Shown piece after piece: positions 50,444 to 60,721 of a stretch of 64,000 nt of DNA. The stretch's first letter is position 1, and each line of letters begins with the position of its first letter. The stretch is from Microbacterium hydrocarbonoxydans (GTDB lineage Bacteria; Actinomycetota; Actinomycetes; Actinomycetales; Microbacteriaceae), in NCBI RefSeq assembly GCF_011752045.1, contig NZ_JAAKXW010000001.1, forward strand, positions 868,001 through 932,000, in the 5' to 3' direction. A model generated the notes under the pieces. It made no database searches, was not told the origin of the DNA, and saw only the letters and a program-made list of their open reading frames with translations. A program made the position numbers and the translations under genes.

Positions 50444-51466
50444 TCAGCGCGCGGTGAGCGGCACCGGCGATGAGAAGCGGAGGTCGGAGGCCAGCGCCTC
50501 CTCCGCACGCCGGACCGCCGCATCCGCCGCTCCGGCATCCGCCAGCGCCAGCAGCGCGGCGCCGCGCACCGGCGGCGCGTCGACGATCTCGAGCCGCGCG
50601 TCCGGCACGTGCTCCTCGAGCCCTCTCGTGATCCCGTGCAGGAGCAGCGGGTCGCGGGCGCGGGCGACGCCTCCTCCGAACACGACCGGGATGCTCGTGC
50701 GCTGCAGGCCGAGCCCCGTCACGCACGCGCGGGCGTAGGCGACCACCTCCTCCGCCTGCCGCTGCACGACGGCACGGGCGATCGCGTCCCCCGCGTGCGC
50801 GGCCTCGAACACCAGTGGCGCGAGGGTCGCGAAGCCGTCGTCGGCGCGGCGCCCGAGGTGCACGTCCTCGATGAGGGCGTTGACGCTCGGTGCGCCCACG
50901 GTCTCGAGCAGCAGCGAGCGCAGCGCCGTCTCCGGTCCCCGTCCGTCCTCCGCTCGCGCCGCGTGCCAGACGACGGCGCCGCCGAGCTCGGTGCCGCCGC
51001 CCCAGTCGCCGGAGAGCGGGCCGAGGGCGGGGAACCTCGCGACCGCGCCGTCGCCGCGAACCCCGATCGCGTTCATCCCGGTGCCGCAGATGACCGCGAC
51101 CGCATCGGGGGCGTCGGTGCCGGCGCGGAGCAGCGCATGCAGGTCGTTCTCGGCGACGTGCGGCCCCTGCGCCCACGGCATGCCGGCGATCGCGGTGCGG
51201 AAGGCGTCGATCTCCTCGGCGAGGTCGAGACCGGAGAGGTACAGACCCGCCTGCGCGAGCCGCGCAGGGTCACGATCGCCGAGCGCCGCGCGGACGAGCG
51301 CGTCGATGATGCGCACCGACTCCGCCAGCCCTTCGAGCTGCGGACTCGACCCCGGTCCCCGCTCCCAGGCGAGCACGGCGCCCGCGGTGTCCAGCAGCAC
51401 GACGTCGGTCTTGGATCCGCCGCCGTCGACGGCGAGGACGAGATCGGATGCCGCGGTCACGCCCAC
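50444..51466 (-). CDS. BadF/BcrA/NagK-type sugar kinase
   Basis: A 340-residue ASKHA-fold kinase of the BadF/BadG/BcrA/BcrD class, which includes N-acetylglucosamine kinases. Phosphate-1 loop VDGGGSKTDVVLLD (about 13-26), phosphate-2 motif AVICGTGMNAIGV, and LSGDWGGGTELGG and FGGGVARARD complete the site. Its likely substrate is an amino sugar or hexose from the GH4 reaction, or the imported sugar itself. Last gene of the operon starting at 59314. The GTG at 51466 overlaps the GH4 stop by 10 bp; other GTG starts a few codons downstream are possible. Confidence 0.87.
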   Translation of the reverse strand: MGVTAASDLVLAVDGGGSKTDVVLLDTAGAVLAWERGPGSSPQLEGLAESVRIIDALVRAALGDRDPARLAQAGLYLSGLDLAEEIDAFRTAIAGMPWAQGPHVAENDLHALLRAGTDAPDAVAVICGTGMNAIGVRGDGAVARFPALGPLSGDWGGGTELGGAVVWHAARAEDGRGPETALRSLLLETVGAPSVNALIEDVHLGRRADDGFATLAPLVFEAAHAGDAIARAVVQRQAEEVVAYARACVTGLGLQRTSIPVVFGGGVARARDPLLLHGITRGLEEHVPDARLEIVDAPPVRGAALLALADAGAADAAVRRAEEALASDLRFSSPVPLTAR

Positions 51467-52713
51467 TCCAGGAAGCGGGAGTTGGCGGCGAGGAGCAGGT
51501 CTGTGAGCTTCTCGGCCCTGTCGTGCTGGAGCACGAGGGGATGCGCGCGCATGGCGCGGAGCACGCGGTCGCGGCCTCCGTGGAGCGCGGCGTCGAGCGC
51601 CAGCCTCTCGTAGCCGGCGACCGCGCCGATCAGGCCGGCGATGTCGTCCGGCAGCTGGGCGACGGGCTCCGCGACGAAGCGGCCGTCCACGTGGCGGGCG
51701 GGCACCTCGATGACGTGGTCATCGGGGAGGAACGGCAGCACGCCGTCGTTGCGCAGGTTGACGACCCGCGGGGCGTCGGAGACCCCGCGGATCGCGCCGA
51801 GCAGCTCGATCGCGGCCTCGGAATAGAAGGCCCCGCCGCGCCTCTCCAGGATCTCGGGCTTCGTGTCGACGCTCTCGTCCGCGTAGATCCCGAGGAGCTC
51901 CTGCTCGATCGCACGAACCTCCTGGGCGCGGGTGGCTGCGTGCCGCTGCTCGTGCAGGACCTCGTCGTGTGCGTAGTAGTAGCGCAGGTAGTAGGAGGGG
52001 ATGACGCCGAGCTGCGCGAGCAGCGCCGGTGCGAGGTCGACGTCCGCGGCGAGATCTCCGAGACGTGTCTCCAGGGCTCGGGGCAGGATGTCCTCGCCGT
52101 CGACGAACACCCCGCGCTCCCACGTCAGGTGATTGAGGCCGACGTGCGCGAGGGCCACGCGTTCCGGCGCGACGCCCGCCTCGGCGGCGAAGCGGCGCTG
52201 GAAGCCGATCGCGACGTTGCAGAGCCCGACGGCGCGATGACCGGCCTGCAGCAGCGCACGGGTGACGATGCCGACGGGATTGGTGAAGTCGACGATCCAC
52301 GCATCCGGCCTCGCGTGACGGCGCACCGCCTCGGCGATGCGCAGCACCACCGGCACGGTGCGCAGCGCCTTGGCCAGTCCGCCGGGGCCCGTGGTCTCCT
52401 GACCGATGCAGTCGGCATCGTGCGGCCAGCTCTCGTCCTGCTCCCGCGCGTCCTGACCTCCCACGCGGAGCTGGACGAGCACCGCGTCCGCGTCCGCCAC
52501 CCCGGCGACCAGGTCGTCGGTCGTGATCAGCCTCGCCGGATGCCCGCCGCGCGCCAGCATCCGGCGGGACATGCCGCCGACGAGCTCGAGGCGGGACCGG
52601 TCGGCGTCCACGAGGACGATCTCCTCGATCGGCAGCTCGTCCCGGAGCCGGATGAAGCCGTCGATCAGCTCCGGGGTGTACGTCGATCCGCCGCCGACGA
52701 TGGTCAGTCTCAT
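51457..52713 (-). CDS. GH4-family 6-phospho-beta-glucosidase-like enzyme
   Basis: A 418-residue GH4 glycosidase, the NAD+/Mn2+-dependent class that opens glycosides by oxidation-elimination. Dinucleotide loop VGGGSTYTPELIDG at the N-terminus, substrate/metal region LCNVAIGFQRRF (Cys165, Asn166), VGLNHLTW (His195), and YYLRYYYAHDEV. Closest in pattern to 6-phospho-beta-glucosidases, whose substrates normally come from PTS import. Here the import system is an ABC transporter and no PTS gene is nearby. The ATG at 52713 follows AAGGAGAG-like bases at proper spacing. Confidence 0.88.
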   Translation of the reverse strand: MRLTIVGGGSTYTPELIDGFIRLRDELPIEEIVLVDADRSRLELVGGMSRRMLARGGHPARLITTDDLVAGVADADAVLVQLRVGGQDAREQDESWPHDADCIGQETTGPGGLAKALRTVPVVLRIAEAVRRHARPDAWIVDFTNPVGIVTRALLQAGHRAVGLCNVAIGFQRRFAAEAGVAPERVALAHVGLNHLTWERGVFVDGEDILPRALETRLGDLAADVDLAPALLAQLGVIPSYYLRYYYAHDEVLHEQRHAATRAQEVRAIEQELLGIYADESVDTKPEILERRGGAFYSEAAIELLGAIRGVSDAPRVVNLRNDGVLPFLPDDHVIEVPARHVDGRFVAEPVAQLPDDIAGLIGAVAGYERLALDAALHGGRDRVLRAMRAHPLVLQHDRAEKLTDLLLAANSRFLEWA

Positions 52714-53930: not shown

Positions 53931-54767
53931 TCAGCGGATCGCGAGCTCGGCGCGGACCTCATCGCGGAGGCGGCCGAGGTTCTCGGGCTCGGGGGCGGCG
54001 CCGAGGAGCGTCCTCGTGTACTCGTGCCGCGGATGGAGGATGACGTCGTCCGCGGGTCCGCGTTCGACGACGTCGCCCCGGTAGAGCACCATGATCTCGT
54101 CGGAGAAGTGCCGCGCGGTGGCGAGGTCGTGCGTGATGTAGAGCACGCCGAGGTCGTCCTCGCGCTGCAGGTCCGCGAGGAGGTTGAGCACGCCGAGCCT
54201 GATCGACACGTCCAGCATCGACACCGGCTCGTCGGCCACGATGAACCGCGCTCCGGGTGCCAGCGCCCTGGCGATCGCGACACGCTGCCGCTGCCCTCCG
54301 GACAGCTCGTGAGGACGGCGCTCCGCGAAGTCCTCCGCCGGACACAGGCGCACGCGCTCGAGGAGCTCGAGGACGCGCGCGCGCACCGCGGCGGCGCCGA
54401 GTCGAGGGTGATGCAGGCGGATCGGCCGCTCGAGGTGATGCCCGACGGTGTGGAACGGGTTCAGCGAAGCGAACGGGTCCTGGAACACCATCTGCACGTC
54501 ACCACGGTAGGCGGCCAGCGGACGGCCTCTGTCCGCCGCCGGTCTGCCGTCCAGCAGGATCTGCCCGCTGGTGGGGTGCTCCAGTCGCATCAGCATCCGT
54601 GCGATCGTCGACTTCCCGCTTCCGGACTCGCCGACCAGCGCGATCGTCCTCCCCGCCTCCAGTGTGAAGGACACGTCCTTCACCGCGTGCACGACGGTGG
54701 TGCGCAACCCGGAGCGCAGGGTGAAGTCCTTGACCAGGCTGCGAGCCTCGAGGGTGGGGGCGCTCAT
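53931..54767 (-). CDS. ABC importer ATP-binding protein (OppF type)
   Basis: A 278-residue ATPase: Walker A GESGSGKST, Q-loop FQDPFASLNP, signature LSGGQRQR, Walker B FIVADEPVSMLD and switch His ITHDLATARH. Partner of the OppD-type subunit, with which it shares an ATGA overlap at 54764-54767. Confidence 0.92.
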   Translation of the reverse strand: MSAPTLEARSLVKDFTLRSGLRTTVVHAVKDVSFTLEAGRTIALVGESGSGKSTIARMLMRLEHPTSGQILLDGRPAADRGRPLAAYRGDVQMVFQDPFASLNPFHTVGHHLERPIRLHHPRLGAAAVRARVLELLERVRLCPAEDFAERRPHELSGGQRQRVAIARALAPGARFIVADEPVSMLDVSIRLGVLNLLADLQREDDLGVLYITHDLATARHFSDEIMVLYRGDVVERGPADDVILHPRHEYTRTLLGAAPEPENLGRLRDEVRAELAIR

Positions 54768-55621
54768 CGCACGGCCTCCGTTCCGGGCTGCGCACCGGTG
54801 CGCACGAAGTCGCCCCGCTCTCCGCGCAGCGAGGGGAAGCTCGAGAGCAGCTTCTTCGTGTAGTCGTGCTGCGGGTTCCGGTAGATCTCCTCCGCCGTGC
54901 CCTCCTCCACGATCCGCCCCTGCAGCATCACGGCGATGCGATCGCTGATCTCGATGAGCATGGGCAGGTCGTGCGTGATGAAGATCACTGCGAAGCCCAG
55001 CCGCTCGCGGAGCCGCATGATCTCGCGGATGATGCCGCGCTGCACCACGACGTCCAGCGCCGTCGTCGGCTCGTCCATGATCATCACCTGCGGGTCCAGC
55101 GCGAGGGCCATCGCGATCATCATCCGCTGCCGCATCCCGCCGGAGAGCTCATGCGGGAACGACGTCAGGCGGGTCGGCTCGACGCCGACCAGCGTGAGCA
55201 GCTCCTCCGCCCGCGCCTGCCTGTCGCGCCGCGACATGCCGGGGCGGTGGGTGTCGAAGATGTCGAAGATCTGCGCGCGCACCGGGATGACCGGGTTGAG
55301 CGAGTTCATCGCTCCCTGGAACACCATGGAGATCTTGTCCCAGCGGAACGCGCGCAGCCCCTCGCCGTCCAAGCCGACCACGTCGATGTCCGAGCCGTCG
55401 CGATCGTGGAACAGGATCTCGCCGCCTGTCATCAGCGCCGGCGCCTTCAGCAGCCGGTTCATGCCGTAGGCGAGGGTCGTCTTCCCGCAGCCGGACTCCC
55501 CGGCCAGCCCCAGGATCTCGCCCCGGTTGAGGGTGAGGGACACGTCCCGCACCGCCTTCACCGGCGGATCCACCTCGTACTCGATCGACACGTTCCGTGC
55601 CGTGAGAACCGCCTCGCTCAT
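54764..55621 (-). CDS. ABC importer ATP-binding protein (OppD type)
   Basis: A 285-residue ATPase: Walker A GESGCGKTT, Q-loop FQGAMNSLNPVIPVRAQI (Gly-Ala replacing the usual Asp/Glu-Pro), signature LSGGMRQR, Walker B VMIMDEPTTALD, switch His ITHDLPMLIE. The ATG at 55621 overlaps the permease stop (ATGA). Confidence 0.92.
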   Translation of the reverse strand: MSEAVLTARNVSIEYEVDPPVKAVRDVSLTLNRGEILGLAGESGCGKTTLAYGMNRLLKAPALMTGGEILFHDRDGSDIDVVGLDGEGLRAFRWDKISMVFQGAMNSLNPVIPVRAQIFDIFDTHRPGMSRRDRQARAEELLTLVGVEPTRLTSFPHELSGGMRQRMMIAMALALDPQVMIMDEPTTALDVVVQRGIIREIMRLRERLGFAVIFITHDLPMLIEISDRIAVMLQGRIVEEGTAEEIYRNPQHDYTKKLLSSFPSLRGERGDFVRTGAQPGTEAVR

Positions 55622-56613
55622 GCGATGGCCCCCTCTCCGCCGACCCCGCGGCCGGAGCGTCGCGCGAGCCGCTGCCGGCGTGCCGCCATCGGCGCCAGGC
55701 GCAGCTTCGGGTTCACGATCTCGTCGATCGCGAAGTTGATCAGGGAGAGGCCGGTTCCGATGAGGGCGATGATGGCACCGGGAGGGACGAACCACCACCA
55801 CGCCCCGCTGCCGACCGCCTGCCCGGTCTGGGCGTCGTTGAGGACGGTGCCGAGGGTGATCGAGCCCGTCGGTCCGAGGCCCAGGTAGGAGAGTCCGGCC
55901 TCGCCGAGCACCGCGAAGATCACGCCGAAGATCAGCTGCGCCGCGAGCAGCGGCACGAGGTTCGGCAGGATCTCCACGAAGATGACCCGCAGCGGCCGCT
56001 CCCCCGCCACCACGGCCGCGGCCACGTAGTCCCGGGTCCGCAGCGACCGCGCGGTGCCCCGCAGCACCACCGCGGAGCCTGCCCAGCCGGTGATCCCCAG
56101 GACGAGGGCGACGAGCAGGGAGCTCCGTGCGAGGGCGCCGAGTCCCTCCGTGTGCTGCACGTACGCGGCGATCACCATCACGAGCGGTAGACCGGGGATG
56201 ACGAGCATGATGTTCGTCATCAGCATCAGGACCTCGTCGAGCACGCCGCCGAAGTACCCGGCGAGGACCCCGAAGAGCAGCGCGAGCGCGAGGGCGACGG
56301 AACCGGCGACCACGCCGACGAAGAGCGACCCCTGCGTGCCGGTCGCGATCTGGGCGAGCACGTCGTGGCCGAGCTTGGTCGTCCCGAGCGGATGCTCGGC
56401 GCTCGGCGGCAGCAGCGCCTCGAACCCGGCGTCCCGCGGATCTCCGACGAGCAGCGGACCGATGAGTCCGAACAGGGTGATCGCCGCGATCAGCAGGATG
56501 CCGACGAGGAGCTTGCCGGACAGGTGCGGCAGCACGCGGCGACGCCGCTCGGCGCGGGACACGGCCACGGCGTGCGTGGATTCGGCGAGGGGCGCCGTGA
56601 TCAGATCAGCCAT
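55618..56613 (-). CDS. ABC importer permease (OppC type)
   Basis: A 331-residue permease with six helices. HPLGTTKLGHDVLAQIATGTQGSLFVGV corresponds to the OppC/DppC signature, and EAGLSYLGLGPTGSITLG follows the coupling loop RTRDYVAAAVVAGERPLRVIFVEILPN. It overlaps the OppB-type gene by 8 bp. Confidence 0.92.
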   Translation of the reverse strand: MADLITAPLAESTHAVAVSRAERRRRVLPHLSGKLLVGILLIAAITLFGLIGPLLVGDPRDAGFEALLPPSAEHPLGTTKLGHDVLAQIATGTQGSLFVGVVAGSVALALALLFGVLAGYFGGVLDEVLMLMTNIMLVIPGLPLVMVIAAYVQHTEGLGALARSSLLVALVLGITGWAGSAVVLRGTARSLRTRDYVAAAVVAGERPLRVIFVEILPNLVPLLAAQLIFGVIFAVLGEAGLSYLGLGPTGSITLGTVLNDAQTGQAVGSGAWWWFVPPGAIIALIGTGLSLINFAIDEIVNPKLRLAPMAARRQRLARRSGRGVGGEGAIA

Positions 56614-57610
56614 TGCGGCGCACTCTCGGGTCGATGAAGCCGTACAGGAGGTCGATGAGGAGGTTGGCCGCGAGCACGGTGAGCGTGATGACCAGGAAGA
56701 CCCCCTGCATGAGCGCGTAGTCCAGCCCCTGCACCGCCTGGATCATCAGCTTCCCGATGCCGGGATAGCTGAACACCTGCTCCGTCACGATGGAGCCCGC
56801 CACCACGAACCCGAGCGCGATGCCGAACCCGGCGAGACTCGGGATCGACGCGTTCCGGGCCGCGTACGCCCCGCGGATGCGCGAGGGGCGCAGCCCCTTC
56901 GCCTCCGCCGTGAGGACGTAGTCTTCCGCCATGGTCTGCACCATCATGTTCCGCATCCCGAGCAGCCAGCCGCCGACCGAGGAGATCACGATCGTGACGG
57001 CGGGCAGGAGGGCGTGCACGAATGCGCTGCCGATGAATGCGGGGCTCCATTCCGGACCCGCCGGGTAGGCGAACACGTCGTAGCCGCCGATGATCGGCAG
57101 CAGGCCGAGCTGCACGGAGAACACGGCCACGAGGACCAGAGCCAGCCAGAAATAGGGGACGGACTGGAGGAATGTGGTCACCGGGACGAGCTGGTCGACC
57201 CAGGTGCCGCGCTTCCAGCCTGCCCAGGCTCCGGCGACGATCCCGAGCACGAAGGAGATGACGGTGGCCGCGCCGACGAGCGTCACGGTCCACGGCAGCG
57301 CCGCGGCGATGAGCTCGCCCACCGGGGCCGGATACCGGGTCGAGGAGATCCCCAGGTCGCCCTGCAGCATCCGGCCCCAGTACGCGAGGTACTGGTCCCA
57401 CAGGGTCGAGCCCTTCTCCGCCCCGAGGATGGAGGTGATCGCGCTGATCGTCTCCTCCGACAGCGGACGGTTTCCGTTCGCCCTCCGGAGCTTGCCCAGC
57501 ATGATCGCCGCCGGATCGCCCGGCAGCATCCGCGGGAGCAGGAAGTTGAGGGAGATGGCGGCCCAGAGCGTGACGATGTAGAACACGATGCGACGGATCC
57601 AGAAGGTCAT
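56606..57610 (-). CDS. ABC importer permease (OppB type)
   Basis: A 334-residue permease: RIVFYIVTLWAAISLNFLLPRMLPGDPA at the first helix, the coupling loop MAEDYVLTAEAKGLRPSRIRGAYAARNA, and VTEQVFSYPGIGKLMIQAVQGLDYALMQG. It follows the binding-protein stop by 42 bp. Confidence 0.92.
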   Translation of the reverse strand: MTFWIRRIVFYIVTLWAAISLNFLLPRMLPGDPAAIMLGKLRRANGNRPLSEETISAITSILGAEKGSTLWDQYLAYWGRMLQGDLGISSTRYPAPVGELIAAALPWTVTLVGAATVISFVLGIVAGAWAGWKRGTWVDQLVPVTTFLQSVPYFWLALVLVAVFSVQLGLLPIIGGYDVFAYPAGPEWSPAFIGSAFVHALLPAVTIVISSVGGWLLGMRNMMVQTMAEDYVLTAEAKGLRPSRIRGAYAARNASIPSLAGFGIALGFVVAGSIVTEQVFSYPGIGKLMIQAVQGLDYALMQGVFLVITLTVLAANLLIDLLYGFIDPRVRRNG

Positions 57611-57652: not shown

Positions 57653-59314
57653 CTACTTCGCGGGACGCAGATGCGTCAGGATGACCGCGGAGGCGGTGGA
57701 CAGGTACGGCAGCGGGGCCGCGTACATGTCGTCCTCGGTGGGCCAGCCGGTGAAGTCCGCGGTGTTGAAGAACGACTGGGATGCGTTCAGCACGACGGGG
57801 ATGTAGGGCAGATCGCGGGCGATCTCGCCCTGGATGGTCGCGTAGGCGTCCTTCTTGATCGCCTCGTCCTGCGTGGCGCCGGCGGCCGCGACCGCCTCGT
57901 CGACCACCGGATTCGTGTACCGGGCGTAGTTCTGTCCGCTGCTGGGCATCTCGCCCACCTTCGCCGTCGCGGCCGTCGCGAAGTACTGGTCGTAGTTCGA
58001 GAACGGATCGGCGACGAGGGACTGCGTGAGGCCGTAGAGGGCCAGCTGGAACTCGCCGTTCGAGACCGGCGTCCAGTACTCGGCCTCGGACACGGTGCGG
58101 GCGTTCACGCGGATGCCGGCCTCCGCGGCCTGGGCGCTGATGAGCTTCGCCGCATCGTTGTAGTCGGTCCATCCGTCGGGCGAGAACAGGTCGAGCTCGA
58201 TGGCGACGCCGTCCTTTCCGTAGAAGCCCTCGCCGTCCTTCGTGTAGCCCGCGGCCTCGAGGACCGCGGCCGCCGCCTCGGCATCCGCCTCCTGCGGGCT
58301 CGTCGCGAGTTCCGGATCCGCCAGCCACTTCTCGTCGCGCGGCAGGAGCGCGAAGCTCGGCGACGCCTCGCCGGAGAGACCGGCGAAGGCCTTGTCGCTG
58401 ATCGCGCCGCGGTCGATGGCGAGGTTGAGGGCCTGCCGCACCGCCGGATCCGTCTGCGCTCCCTCGCAGCCGAGAGTCGCATCGGCGCAGGTCATGATGA
58501 CCGTCGGGTCCTGCTGCTGGTTCATCGTGCTGATCCGGCCGTTCGCGGTGACGCCGTCCGGGTTGGCGATGAACTGGCCGACCCAGTCGAGCTTGCCTGT
58601 CTTCAGCAGGTCCTCGGAGGACTGGTTCGAGTCGATGCCGACGTCCTGGACCTCCTTGACGTCCGGCTCGCCCTCGCGGAACAGCGGGTTCGCCTCGAGG
58701 GTGTACGCGGCGTCGGTGAACGCCTTGAGCTTGTAAGGACCGGAGCCGACCGGGTTCGGGTTCGTCTCCGACATGTAGTCCTCGATCCCCTCCCAGACGT
58801 GCTCGGGCACGATCCAGGTCGACCCGAGGATGAGCGACGCTGCGGTGAACTTGGGGGTCGAGTAGGTGACGACGACGGTGGTGGCGTCGGTCGCCTCCGC
58901 CGACAGCATGTCAGGATCGAGGTTCGATCCGTAGCCGAGGCTGAACGCGACGTCCTCGGCGGTGAGGTCCTTGTCGTCGCTCCATTTGAGGTCCGGCTTG
59001 ATCCTGATGGTGAGGACGGTGCCGTCCTCGCTGAACTCGTAGGCGTCGCCGATGAGTCCCACCGGCTCGTCGGACGAGAGCTGGTTGAAGAAGAACAGGG
59101 GCTCGTAGATCGCGCCGAAGGTCAGGTGTGTGGCGGTGTCGACGGCGAACGGGTTGAAGTTGTTGGCGATGGGGGTCATCGATCCCGACCAGATCCGCAG
59201 CGGGCGGTCCGCTCCGGACGCGGCGGGCGCGGGGGTGCAGCCGCCCAGGGTCAGTGCGAGCGCGGCGGCGCCGGCGACGAGAGGAAGGGCCTTCCTCCAG
59301 TGGTTGTCGTGCAT
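57653..59314 (-). CDS. ABC importer substrate-binding lipoprotein (SBP_bac_5)
   Basis: A 553-residue lipoprotein: signal peptide with lipobox LGGC (Cys26), then an SBP_bac_5 domain (ATHLTFGAIYEPLFFFNQLS, YEFSEDGTVLTIRIKPDLKWSDDKDLTAEDVAFSL). Members of this family import peptides but in actinobacteria and thermophiles also cello- and other oligosaccharides; the GH4 gene in the operon favours a sugar here. The ATG at 59314 is chosen over an open frame reaching back to 59422 because it gives the signal peptide. Three AAAG/CTTT palindromes lie 77-131 bp upstream. Confidence 0.92.
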   Translation of the reverse strand: MHDNHWRKALPLVAGAAALALTLGGCTPAPAASGADRPLRIWSGSMTPIANNFNPFAVDTATHLTFGAIYEPLFFFNQLSSDEPVGLIGDAYEFSEDGTVLTIRIKPDLKWSDDKDLTAEDVAFSLGYGSNLDPDMLSAEATDATTVVVTYSTPKFTAASLILGSTWIVPEHVWEGIEDYMSETNPNPVGSGPYKLKAFTDAAYTLEANPLFREGEPDVKEVQDVGIDSNQSSEDLLKTGKLDWVGQFIANPDGVTANGRISTMNQQQDPTVIMTCADATLGCEGAQTDPAVRQALNLAIDRGAISDKAFAGLSGEASPSFALLPRDEKWLADPELATSPQEADAEAAAAVLEAAGYTKDGEGFYGKDGVAIELDLFSPDGWTDYNDAAKLISAQAAEAGIRVNARTVSEAEYWTPVSNGEFQLALYGLTQSLVADPFSNYDQYFATAATAKVGEMPSSGQNYARYTNPVVDEAVAAAGATQDEAIKKDAYATIQGEIARDLPYIPVVLNASQSFFNTADFTGWPTEDDMYAAPLPYLSTASAVILTHLRPAK

Positions 59315-59390
59315 GGGGAACCTCGTCTCAAGGGCTTCGTTGCTTTGGTCGAGCAAGGACGGACGGGGTCCGCCTCGAAGCGAGGTTATA

Positions 59391-59445
59391 GTAAAGGTTC
59401 TTTCCGGTAAAGACCTTTCCAATTATTTTGTAAAGAATCTTTTCC
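59391..59445. promoter_or_regulatory. Three AAAG-n-CTTT palindromes, candidate ROK operators
   Basis: On the minus strand the sites read GGAAAGAACCTTTAC (59391-59405), GGAAAGGTCTTTAC (59407-59420) and GGAAAAGATTCTTTAC (59430-59445): the same GGAAAG / CTTTAC halves with 2-4 bp between. A TATAAC -10-like box follows at 59385-59390. The third site lies inside the 3' end of the APC permease gene. The AT content is far above the surroundings. Confidence 0.65.
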
Positions 59446-60721
59446 TGATACGGCGCGCGACCGTGACGAGCACGGCTGCAGCGGCGAGCAGGGCGGCGAC
59501 GAGGAGGGCGGATGCCGCGAGCAGGAGCAGCCCCGCGCAGAGGACCGCCGCCACGATGGCCGTCCACCAGCCGAGGGTGCCCCGGTCTAGGATGCGGATG
59601 GCGGCGACCATCCCGAGCGCGTAGATCGCGACCATGCTCGCCGTGTGCACGAGGATGAACGGCTGGAGGTCCATCCCGGTGAGGAACAGGACGAGGAAGT
59701 AGGCCGACGCGACGGAGGCCGTGAGCAGGAGCGCCCGGCGCGGCACCTCCCCGCTCCTCGCCCCGCGCGCGAACCACGCGGGGAGGTCGCCGGCGGCCGC
59801 GAGCGAGGCGCCGAGCTTGCCGAACGCCCCGAGGTAGACGTTGAGCACCCCGACGGCGACGATCGCCGCGACGGCGCCGATCATCGCGGGCGCAGCGCCG
59901 GGCGCCCCACGGGCGGCGAGGTCGAGCAGCACCACGTCACCTTCTCCTGCCTGCTCCCCCAGCGCCCCGACCGTGACGATCTGCAGGGCGAGATAGGCCG
60001 CCCCGGAGAGCACGAGCGTGATAGCGGTGGCGATAGGGATGACCCGCCGCGGATGCGCGAACTCGCCGGAGATGTGCGTGCCTACCTCCCAGCCTGCGAA
60101 CGCCCACACGAACATCACGACGGCGGTCCCGACACCGCCCCATCCGTACGGGAGGAACGGCGTGAAGCTGTCGATCTCCACGGCCGGGGCCGCCAGCGCG
60201 ACCACCACGACGACGACGACGACGAGCAGGAGCCCCGTGAGCACCAGCTGAAGCCACCCCGCGACGCGGACGCCGAACATGTTCACCCCGAGCGGCGCGA
60301 TGAAGAAGGCGAGGGCCAGCGCGGGCACTGCGGCTCTGGCGATGCCGAGCACGGCGGCCGTGTACTGCGCGCCGAGCATCGCGACGACCGGACCGCCGGC
60401 GGAGACGCCGAAGAGGAACCAGTAGCCGGCGGCCCTCGCCGCGGTGTCGCCGAGAGCCCTGCGGACGTAGCTCGCCACACCGCCCGCATCCGGATACCGG
60501 GCGGCGAGGATCGCGAACGTCGACGCCAGCGGGATGGCGAGCAGCGTGACCGCCGCGACGGAGACGAGGCTCGCCGGACCGGCAGCGCGCGCCGCAAGAC
60601 CGGGGAGCACCAGCAGCCCGGTGCCGAGCACGGAGGCGAGGTACAGCGCCACGCCCTGCAGCAGGCCGAGGCCCCGCACCGGCCGGGTCGTCGTCGCAGT
60701 CACCCGCTCATACTGCGGCAT
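59423..60721 (-). CDS. APC-superfamily amino-acid permease (YjeH-like)
   Basis: A 432-residue, about 12-helix transporter: first helix VALYLASVLGTGLLVLPGLAARAAGPA holds the GS/TG-L unwound motif of APC transporters, and FVWAFAGWEVGTHISGEFAHPRRVIPIA matches helix 6 (F-x-G-W-E). It resembles YjeH-type methionine/branched-chain amino-acid exporters. The last codons run into the operator region of the next operon, so transcription into the SBP gene may be regulated there. ATG at 60721. Confidence 0.87.
   Translation of the reverse strand: MPQYERVTATTTRPVRGLGLLQGVALYLASVLGTGLLVLPGLAARAAGPASLVSVAAVTLLAIPLASTFAILAARYPDAGGVASYVRRALGDTAARAAGYWFLFGVSAGGPVVAMLGAQYTAAVLGIARAAVPALALAFFIAPLGVNMFGVRVAGWLQLVLTGLLLVVVVVVVVALAAPAVEIDSFTPFLPYGWGGVGTAVVMFVWAFAGWEVGTHISGEFAHPRRVIPIATAITLVLSGAAYLALQIVTVGALGEQAGEGDVVLLDLAARGAPGAAPAMIGAVAAIVAVGVLNVYLGAFGKLGASLAAAGDLPAWFARGARSGEVPRRALLLTASVASAYFLVLFLTGMDLQPFILVHTASMVAIYALGMVAAIRILDRGTLGWWTAIVAAVLCAGLLLLAASALLVAALLAAAAVLVTVARRIRKRFFTK

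Follow-up and report, generated by a model that had tools for sequence, protein, structure and literature searches.

The DNA that was analyzed, referred to here as the window, is a 64,000-nucleotide stretch of the Microbacterium hydrocarbonoxydans genome. Its minus strand carries an operon encoding, in order, a substrate-binding lipoprotein of the SBP_bac_5 family (SBP5; positions 57653 to 59314), two ABC permeases (BPD_transp_1; 56606 to 57610 and 55618 to 56613), two ABC ATPases (ABC_tran and oligo_HPY; 54764 to 55621, with the start picked by eye, and 53931 to 54767), a ROK-family regulator with an N-terminal winged helix-turn-helix (HTH) (P0001; 52751 to 53884), a family 4 glycosidase (GH4) of the 6-phospho-beta-glucosidase type (51457 to 52713), and a BadF-type amino-sugar kinase resembling NagK and MurK (50444 to 51466), which scored below the NCBIfam cutoff for NagK. 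The operon is headed by a cluster of palindromes, and the next gene upstream, also on the minus strand, encodes an APC amino-acid permease (59423 to 60721). P0001 matched PF00480 (65.4 bits) and PF01047 (32.9 bits), both over the curated cutoffs, giving a winged HTH joined to a ROK domain, and is the proposed ligand of the palindromes.

When the operon proteins were compared by sequence with solved structures, the closest matches were 6-phospho-beta-glucosidases for the GH4 protein (E value of 2e-81) and an N-acetylmuramic acid/N-acetylglucosamine kinase for the kinase (2e-17). The matches of the binding protein included the Vibrio chitin-oligosaccharide binding protein (PDB 1zty, "Chitin Oligosaccharide Binding Protein"; 3e-41), which belongs to the same SBP_bac_5 family but was not the top match; the nine matches scoring above it carry general peptide- or substrate-binding names. 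The Pfam model detects no GH4 gene in the genome other than that of the operon. Because of these matches of the GH4 protein, the kinase, and the binding protein, the operon points to a beta-linked amino-sugar oligosaccharide as its substrate, which would be imported, phosphorylated, and cleaved, presumably in that order. The window operon has a GH4 glycosidase and a ROK regulator, whereas the Vibrio chitin-oligosaccharide system uses other hydrolases and other regulation.

Read directly from the plus strand, positions 59391 to 59444 consist of GTAAAGGTTCTTTCC, g, GTAAAGACCTTTCC, aattatttt, and GTAAAGAATCTTTTC. Three palindromes are thus packed into 54 bp, 37 of which are A or T in a region whose 2-kb windows have G+C contents of 0.68 to 0.74, in agreement with the initial annotation, which had described closely spaced palindromes in an AT-rich patch of GC-rich DNA. 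All three have the plus-strand form GTAAAG-N2/3-CTTTYC (59391 to 59405, 59407 to 59420, and 59430 to 59444). In the direction of transcription, on the minus strand, unit 1 (59407 to 59420; GGAAAG-GT-CTTTAC) lies 15 bp upstream of unit 2 (59391 to 59405; GGAAAG-AAC-CTTTAC), which was the third palindrome of the initial annotation. An upstream accessory site (59430 to 59444; GAAAAG-ATT-CTTTAC) overlaps the last codons of the APC permease, whose reading frame ends at 59423, so that one palindrome does lie inside the end of that coding region, as had been stated. The spacers had been given as 2, 3, and 4 bp; those measured between the AAAG and CTTT cores are 3, 2, and 3 bp. The apparent 4-bp spacer arose because GGA was paired with AAAG at the accessory site, which can be read as GAAAAG-ATT-CTTTAC on the minus strand or GTAAAG-AAT-CTTTTC on the plus strand and has a spacer of 3 bp.

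The window contains AAAGNNCTTT once and AAAGNNNCTTT twice, with a mean of 0.02 for each in shuffled sequence. A genome scan for the core, which the initial annotation had proposed, placed all three copies (with 2- or 3-bp spacers) at 59391 to 59444 and none elsewhere in 3.65 Mb, and the reversed control pattern gave 2 matches per strand across the genome in its N2 form and 0 in its N3 form. Chance palindromes were rejected on the basis of the window shuffles and these whole-genome counts. A terminator was rejected, as no terminator-like element was matched in 59200 to 59600, and an RNA element likewise, as Rfam gave no match in 59000 to 59800. Looser matching was at background level: GAAAGNNNCTTTAC with up to 2 mismatches had 31 and 44 matches by strand across the genome where the reversed control had 55 and 52, and a wider genome regulon built on such near matches was rejected. 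The one-mismatch matches in the genome were three, comprising the accessory site itself, a site at the chitosanase locus described below, and C1:1007588, which lies inside a 578-amino-acid open reading frame and was taken as chance.

The conservation of the palindromes was followed through homologs of the binding protein in related genomes; of the 111 places confirmed there, the best 80 were kept. In 34 of these best 80 loci, a homolog of the operon ROK (at least 51% identity) and a GH4 gene lie downstream, as in the window. In four more (L034, L035, L037, and L038), the contig ends before the ROK gene and the binding protein is 84 to 85% identical to that of the window. The window, the 34 ROK-linked loci, and these four make up the 39 operon loci. 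Promoters of homologous binding-protein genes without a detected linked ROK served as 42 controls, many of which are closely interrelated; five of them (L081, L094, L097, L100, and L109) lie on contigs that stop short of where the ROK gene would be, and one (L108) has a distant ROK (28%) farther away. At another locus, L117, the contig does not reach the promoter.

A weight matrix for one unit was built from 14 half-site pairs of the window, L034 to L036, L038, L040, and L043. Counted without the Microbacterium-group loci (L034 to L044), it reached a P value of <0.05 in 13 of the 27 loci belonging to other clades versus 1 of 42 controls (Fisher P = 5.6e-6), and it failed in the other 14, mostly from Agromyces. 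Its second-best site, placed without constraint, lay exactly 15 bp from the best in 25 of the 38 operon loci other than the window, a set that includes the six used in training, versus none of the 42 controls. A two-unit model admitting periods of 14 to 16 bp and trained without the clade being tested scored 15.5 to 39.3 in all 39 operon loci versus at most 13.7 in the 42 controls, a gap that is narrow at its edge, and its seeding with Microbacterium half-sites makes the hold-out unclean for that clade. Single P values of the two-unit model are weak, and 11 of 42 controls also fell below 0.05 on their own shuffles when the model was trained on all positives. The period was 15 bp in 30 operon loci, 16 bp in 8, and 14 bp in 1, and the exact core (AAAGN2-3CTTT) is present in 18 of the 39 promoters; the operon loci are related to each other, and all of these counts are of dependent events. 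Both the first and the second units were found in 39 of 39 operon loci, and only these two promoter-proximal units are broadly conserved. The proposal of the initial annotation that the operon's own ROK protein is the ligand gains support from this comparison, with the array in 34 of 34 ROK-linked loci and lower scores in the 42 controls, and the assignment of the palindromes as putative ROK operators is well supported at the level of sequence. Separately, three loci with an SBP_bac_5 gene and no linked operon ROK (L067, L070, and L071) have a different promoter palindrome, TTTGTTAGG-N7-CCTAACAAA or near it, which is perhaps the operator of another regulator.

The two conserved units coincide with a putative promoter. 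A candidate −35 hexamer on the minus strand, TTTACC (59411 to 59406), overlaps the right arm of unit 1 and matches TTGACA at 4 of 6 positions, and its position and spacing are conserved. It is separated by 17 bp from a candidate −10 hexamer, TAACCT (59388 to 59383), which fits TANNNT and overlaps TATAAC at 59385 to 59390; unit 2 sits in the spacer between them. A TANNNT sequence occurs 16 to 18 bp beyond the putative −35 in 36 of 39 operon loci; random positions within these regions have one at a frequency of 0.027. The three loci without a −10 are L055 to L057, and in L055, by eye, shifting the reading of the array upstream by one unit brings TAGTTT to 17 bp. The promoter is weak by consensus, because a standard sigma-70 promoter scan found no consensus promoter there, and it is called putative on the strength of its conservation. 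An arm of unit 1 on the −35 and unit 2 in the spacer form the layout expected for promoter occlusion. The same overlap would also arise if the palindromes were a by-product of a conserved AT-rich promoter, produced by −35/−10 constraint and base composition, and the arms do overlap the −35 and adjoin the −10. This is very improbable, however, given that unit 2 keeps its dyad in the little-constrained −35/−10 spacer, that the left arm of unit 1 lies upstream of the −35, and that homologous binding-protein promoters without a detected ROK score lower.

The unequal spacers, which the initial annotation had regarded as unusual for fixed operators, follow a pattern across the operon loci. In 15 loci (Mycetocola and the Microbacterium group, the window included), the spacer of unit 1 is 2 bp long and a 1-bp linker follows it, which keeps the 15-bp register; in 15 others, unit 1 has a 3-bp spacer and no linker, and the next left arm again begins 15 bp on. 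The remaining nine loci, with periods of 16 or 14 bp, include seven with a 4-bp spacer, one with 3 bp plus a 1-bp linker (L045), and one with 2 bp and no linker (L093). The unequal spacers are therefore a clade-conserved, mostly balanced, register-preserving shift rather than free variation. A second way to divide the array takes the divergent pair CTTTAC-(N)-GGAAAG/GATAG, which spans neighboring units, as the functional dimer site; the array is then a string of half-sites, of which the palindromes are one reading. By eye, CTTTNC followed directly by RGWTAG, or by GGAAAG after one base, recurs across the loci, as the convergent pairs do. Against this division, the accessory site is a convergent palindrome on its own, lacking any in-phase divergent partner, and the characterized CsnR box is also convergent; we consider the divergent pair an unlikely dimer site.

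The accessory site does not have the standing of the two conserved units. The initial annotation had presented three near-identical sites, but inspection by eye recognizes this one in just 5 of 12 close loci, the window among them. At its place, L034, L039, and L042, which have no APC gene there, show a related sequence, and L040 shows a degenerate one; no such sequence can be seen in the seven others of this set, and where the site is recognizable, often only one arm is present. Among the relative loci, only L040 has an APC homolog directly upstream of the SBP5 gene, as the window does; the other 37 lack one there. The site appears to predate its APC neighbor, whose reading frame now ends in it. 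The place of the APC permease gene varies among the loci, being upstream in the window and L040 and downstream of the kinase gene in L041 and L044 (at about 19.2 to 20.5 kb).

The regulators themselves were placed in a tree together with ROK proteins encoded beside GH4 genes elsewhere. For this comparison, 296 genomes drawn from the class were searched for GH4; 30 matches were made into loci, eight of which were read more widely. ROK proteins were designated csn type by gene order and box, beside GH4 and kinase genes, and none is a named CsnR sequence. The tree keeps the window ROK under its own name and leaves out ROK matches shorter than 330 amino acids as well as duplicate or fused copies (L004, L005, L006, L036, L110, L116, L117, L118, L119, L122, L152, L153, and L154). 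The 35 operon ROKs form one clade (support of 100/100), and a neighboring branch (95/72) holds 14 csn-type ROKs, a CsnR-like paralog from the window's genome, and the relative of that paralog in genome G041. The two are joined at 99/93 in a tree with long branches among the outer ROKs. The median identity of the HTH to that of the operon ROK is 0.65 for the csn-type proteins, 0.41 to 0.47 for the two paralogs, and 0.22 (median) for 27 other ROKs, and the operon, csn-type, and paralog ROKs have in common the SKPTA stretch, part of the presumed recognition helix. Repressors of the NagC/Mlc type share the winged HTH and ROK domain with P0001, but the NagC and Mlc models match it weakly, far under their cutoffs. 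They also differ in the zinc motif CxCGxxGC, which is missing from the operon ROK group; it is absent from 51 of 51 operon-ROK, csn-type, and paralog proteins and present in 14 of the 27 other ROKs.

In 7 of 34 loci, all from Agromyces, the ROK gene has a unit-like sequence of its own in front of it, as judged by a strict pattern written after these sequences had been seen. The pattern had no other match in the 80 loci, and three more Agromyces loci show a variant by eye. This placement suggests that the regulator may control its own gene in Agromyces. In L121, L122, and other loci of the Agromyces group, the ROK gene seemingly has its own promoter and a single unit such as GTAAAGATTCTTTTCAGATAG.

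The nearest characterized system is the csnREFGHK cluster of Streptomyces. The literature drawn on (PMC3048496, PMC6097792, PMC4856308, PMC4663542, PMC5635096, and PMC6520443) describes CsnR as a negative regulator whose convergent box has GGAAA/TTTCC half-sites and lies at the promoter of its own operon, in which the ROK gene comes first and is followed by transporter, GH4, and kinase genes. The effector is given there as a chitosan oligomer, with (GlcN)2 acting best (PMC6097792). Three of the csn-type loci (L149 to L151) match this published layout, with a ROK, SBP_bac_1, two CUT1-like permeases, GH4, and a kinase, and with TAGGAAANTTTCCTA before the ROK gene; in some other csn-type loci the ROK gene directly precedes GH4. 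The window operon resembles this system in the HTH of its regulator (median identity of 0.65 to the csn-type rows, with SKPTA kept), in the GGAAA/TTTCC half-sites, in having GH4 and a sugar kinase in the same operon (59 to 64% and 42 to 47% identity across eight csn-type loci), and, by the published descriptions, in carrying its sites at the promoter of its own operon. It differs in that its ROK gene is sixth rather than first, its regulator falls in the operon-ROK clade, which probably lies outside the csn-type branch, and its transporter consists of SBP_bac_5, two permeases, and two ATPases, in contrast to SBP_bac_1 and two CUT1-like permeases in L149 to L151. The sites differ as well: the CsnR half-sites are 1 bp apart, whereas those of the window are 4 to 5 bp apart and are arranged in at least two tandem units within the −35/−10 region.

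The CsnR operator AGGAAANTTTCCT, with the core GGAAANTTTCC, was found in 11 of 14 csn-type ROK promoters and in 0 of 39 operon SBP promoters, whereas AAAGN2-3CTTT occurs in 0 of the 14 and 18 of the 39. The half-site and the helix therefore look to have been kept and the layout changed. The single copy of GGAAANTTTCC in the window's genome lies beside Lrp/AsnC-like and oxygenase-like genes, judged by eye to be unrelated, and was set aside. The operon thus resembles a relative of the known Streptomyces CsnR switch in which the sites are laid out differently, and the array is ordinary in kind and new in layout relative to CsnR. A stronger statement is that two neighboring ROK clades with closely matching recognition helices and GGAAA/TTTCC half-sites use different operator grammars, one a single site with a 1-bp gap and the other a promoter array with 4- to 5-bp gaps, a preferred 15-bp register, and loss of 1 bp of spacer balanced by a 1-bp linker; this is put forward tentatively, at somewhat less than even chances. 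Literature searches covered titles and the starts of abstracts, with subscription journals mostly outside their reach; within that scope, none of the papers listed for CsnR and Microbacterium or for ROK, GH4, chitosan, and Microbacteriaceae described the operon, and a search for "tandem operator" found no work on the ROK family.

The genome of the window has a second locus with a bearing on chitosan. On contig 5, the gene for the CsnR-like ROK paralog (L114:10193-11404) stands divergently beside a family 46 (GH46) chitosanase gene; GH46 was detected in 2 of 98 relatives. The chitosanase reading frame (L114:11574-14114 of G000, the window's genome) encodes 846 amino acids comprising the GH46 domain, two discoidin (F5/8 type C) stretches, and a metallophosphoesterase domain. 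The intergenic stretch between the two genes holds GAAACCTTCTTTAC, one mismatch from a unit. About nine one-mismatch hits are expected genome-wide from base composition by our own arithmetic; GAAACCTTCTTTAC is accordingly not significant by number and is suggestive by its place. The GH46 locus supports chitosan oligomers as the substrate in this genome. GH46 was not found in G039 and G041, the other two of the 98 genomes that have a close operon ROK, and for this reason the general substrate of the operon may be chitobiose-like rather than chitosan as marked by GH46.

The paralog could itself bind the operators, alone or together with the operon ROK, in which case the operon would belong to a wider chitosan regulon. 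The identical SKPTA stretch of its recognition helix, the adjoining chitosanase gene, and GAAACCTTCTTTAC between the two genes all fit this possibility. Its distribution fits less well: among the matches listed for the 98 genomes, a second match to P0001 better than an E value of 1e-40 occurs only in G000 and G041, while the array accompanies a linked ROK in all 34 loci, and the HTH of the paralogs is only 0.41 to 0.47 identical to that of the operon ROK. Control by the paralog is accordingly considered doubtful, and the linked ROK is retained as the candidate regulator.

In the explanation that we consider probable, the operon's sixth gene encodes a ROK repressor that has the palindromes as its operators, which are embedded in the promoter that it represses and are vacated in response to a sugar. 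Without inducer, a ROK dimer would occupy the abutting units 1 and 2, covering the −35 and the 17-bp spacer and thereby excluding RNA polymerase from the promoter, and the upstream accessory site would raise occupancy. With a period of 15 bp, two dimers would lie on nearly opposite faces of the helix. The repressor would be freed by an imported sugar or its phosphate, the likeliest sugar being a chitosan- or chitobiose-type disaccharide of beta-linked amino sugars, and the genes then expressed would provide uptake by the SBP5 ABC transporter, phosphorylation by the BadF-type kinase, cleavage by GH4, and feedback through ROK. Binding, repression, the inducer, and the order of the enzymatic steps are the parts of this scheme that we infer. 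ROK regulators with both repressor and activator activities are known, and P0001 might instead activate transcription from these sites. That role is highly unlikely: sites lying over the −35 and the spacer are placed as repressor sites usually are, and the published work on CsnR describes negative regulation.

As a repression switch of this kind, the array would tie an operon of Microbacteriaceae, propionibacteria, and their relatives to the chitosan-oligosaccharide pathway of Streptomyces. It gives a regulator-site pair that can be tested and, with the CsnR box at one end and the tandem array at the other, a natural series for studying how ROK proteins read half-site spacing. If the two clades do use different operator grammars, a ROK dimer would tolerate varied separation of its half-sites, and the array would be bound as a unit by dimers on nearly opposite faces of the DNA.
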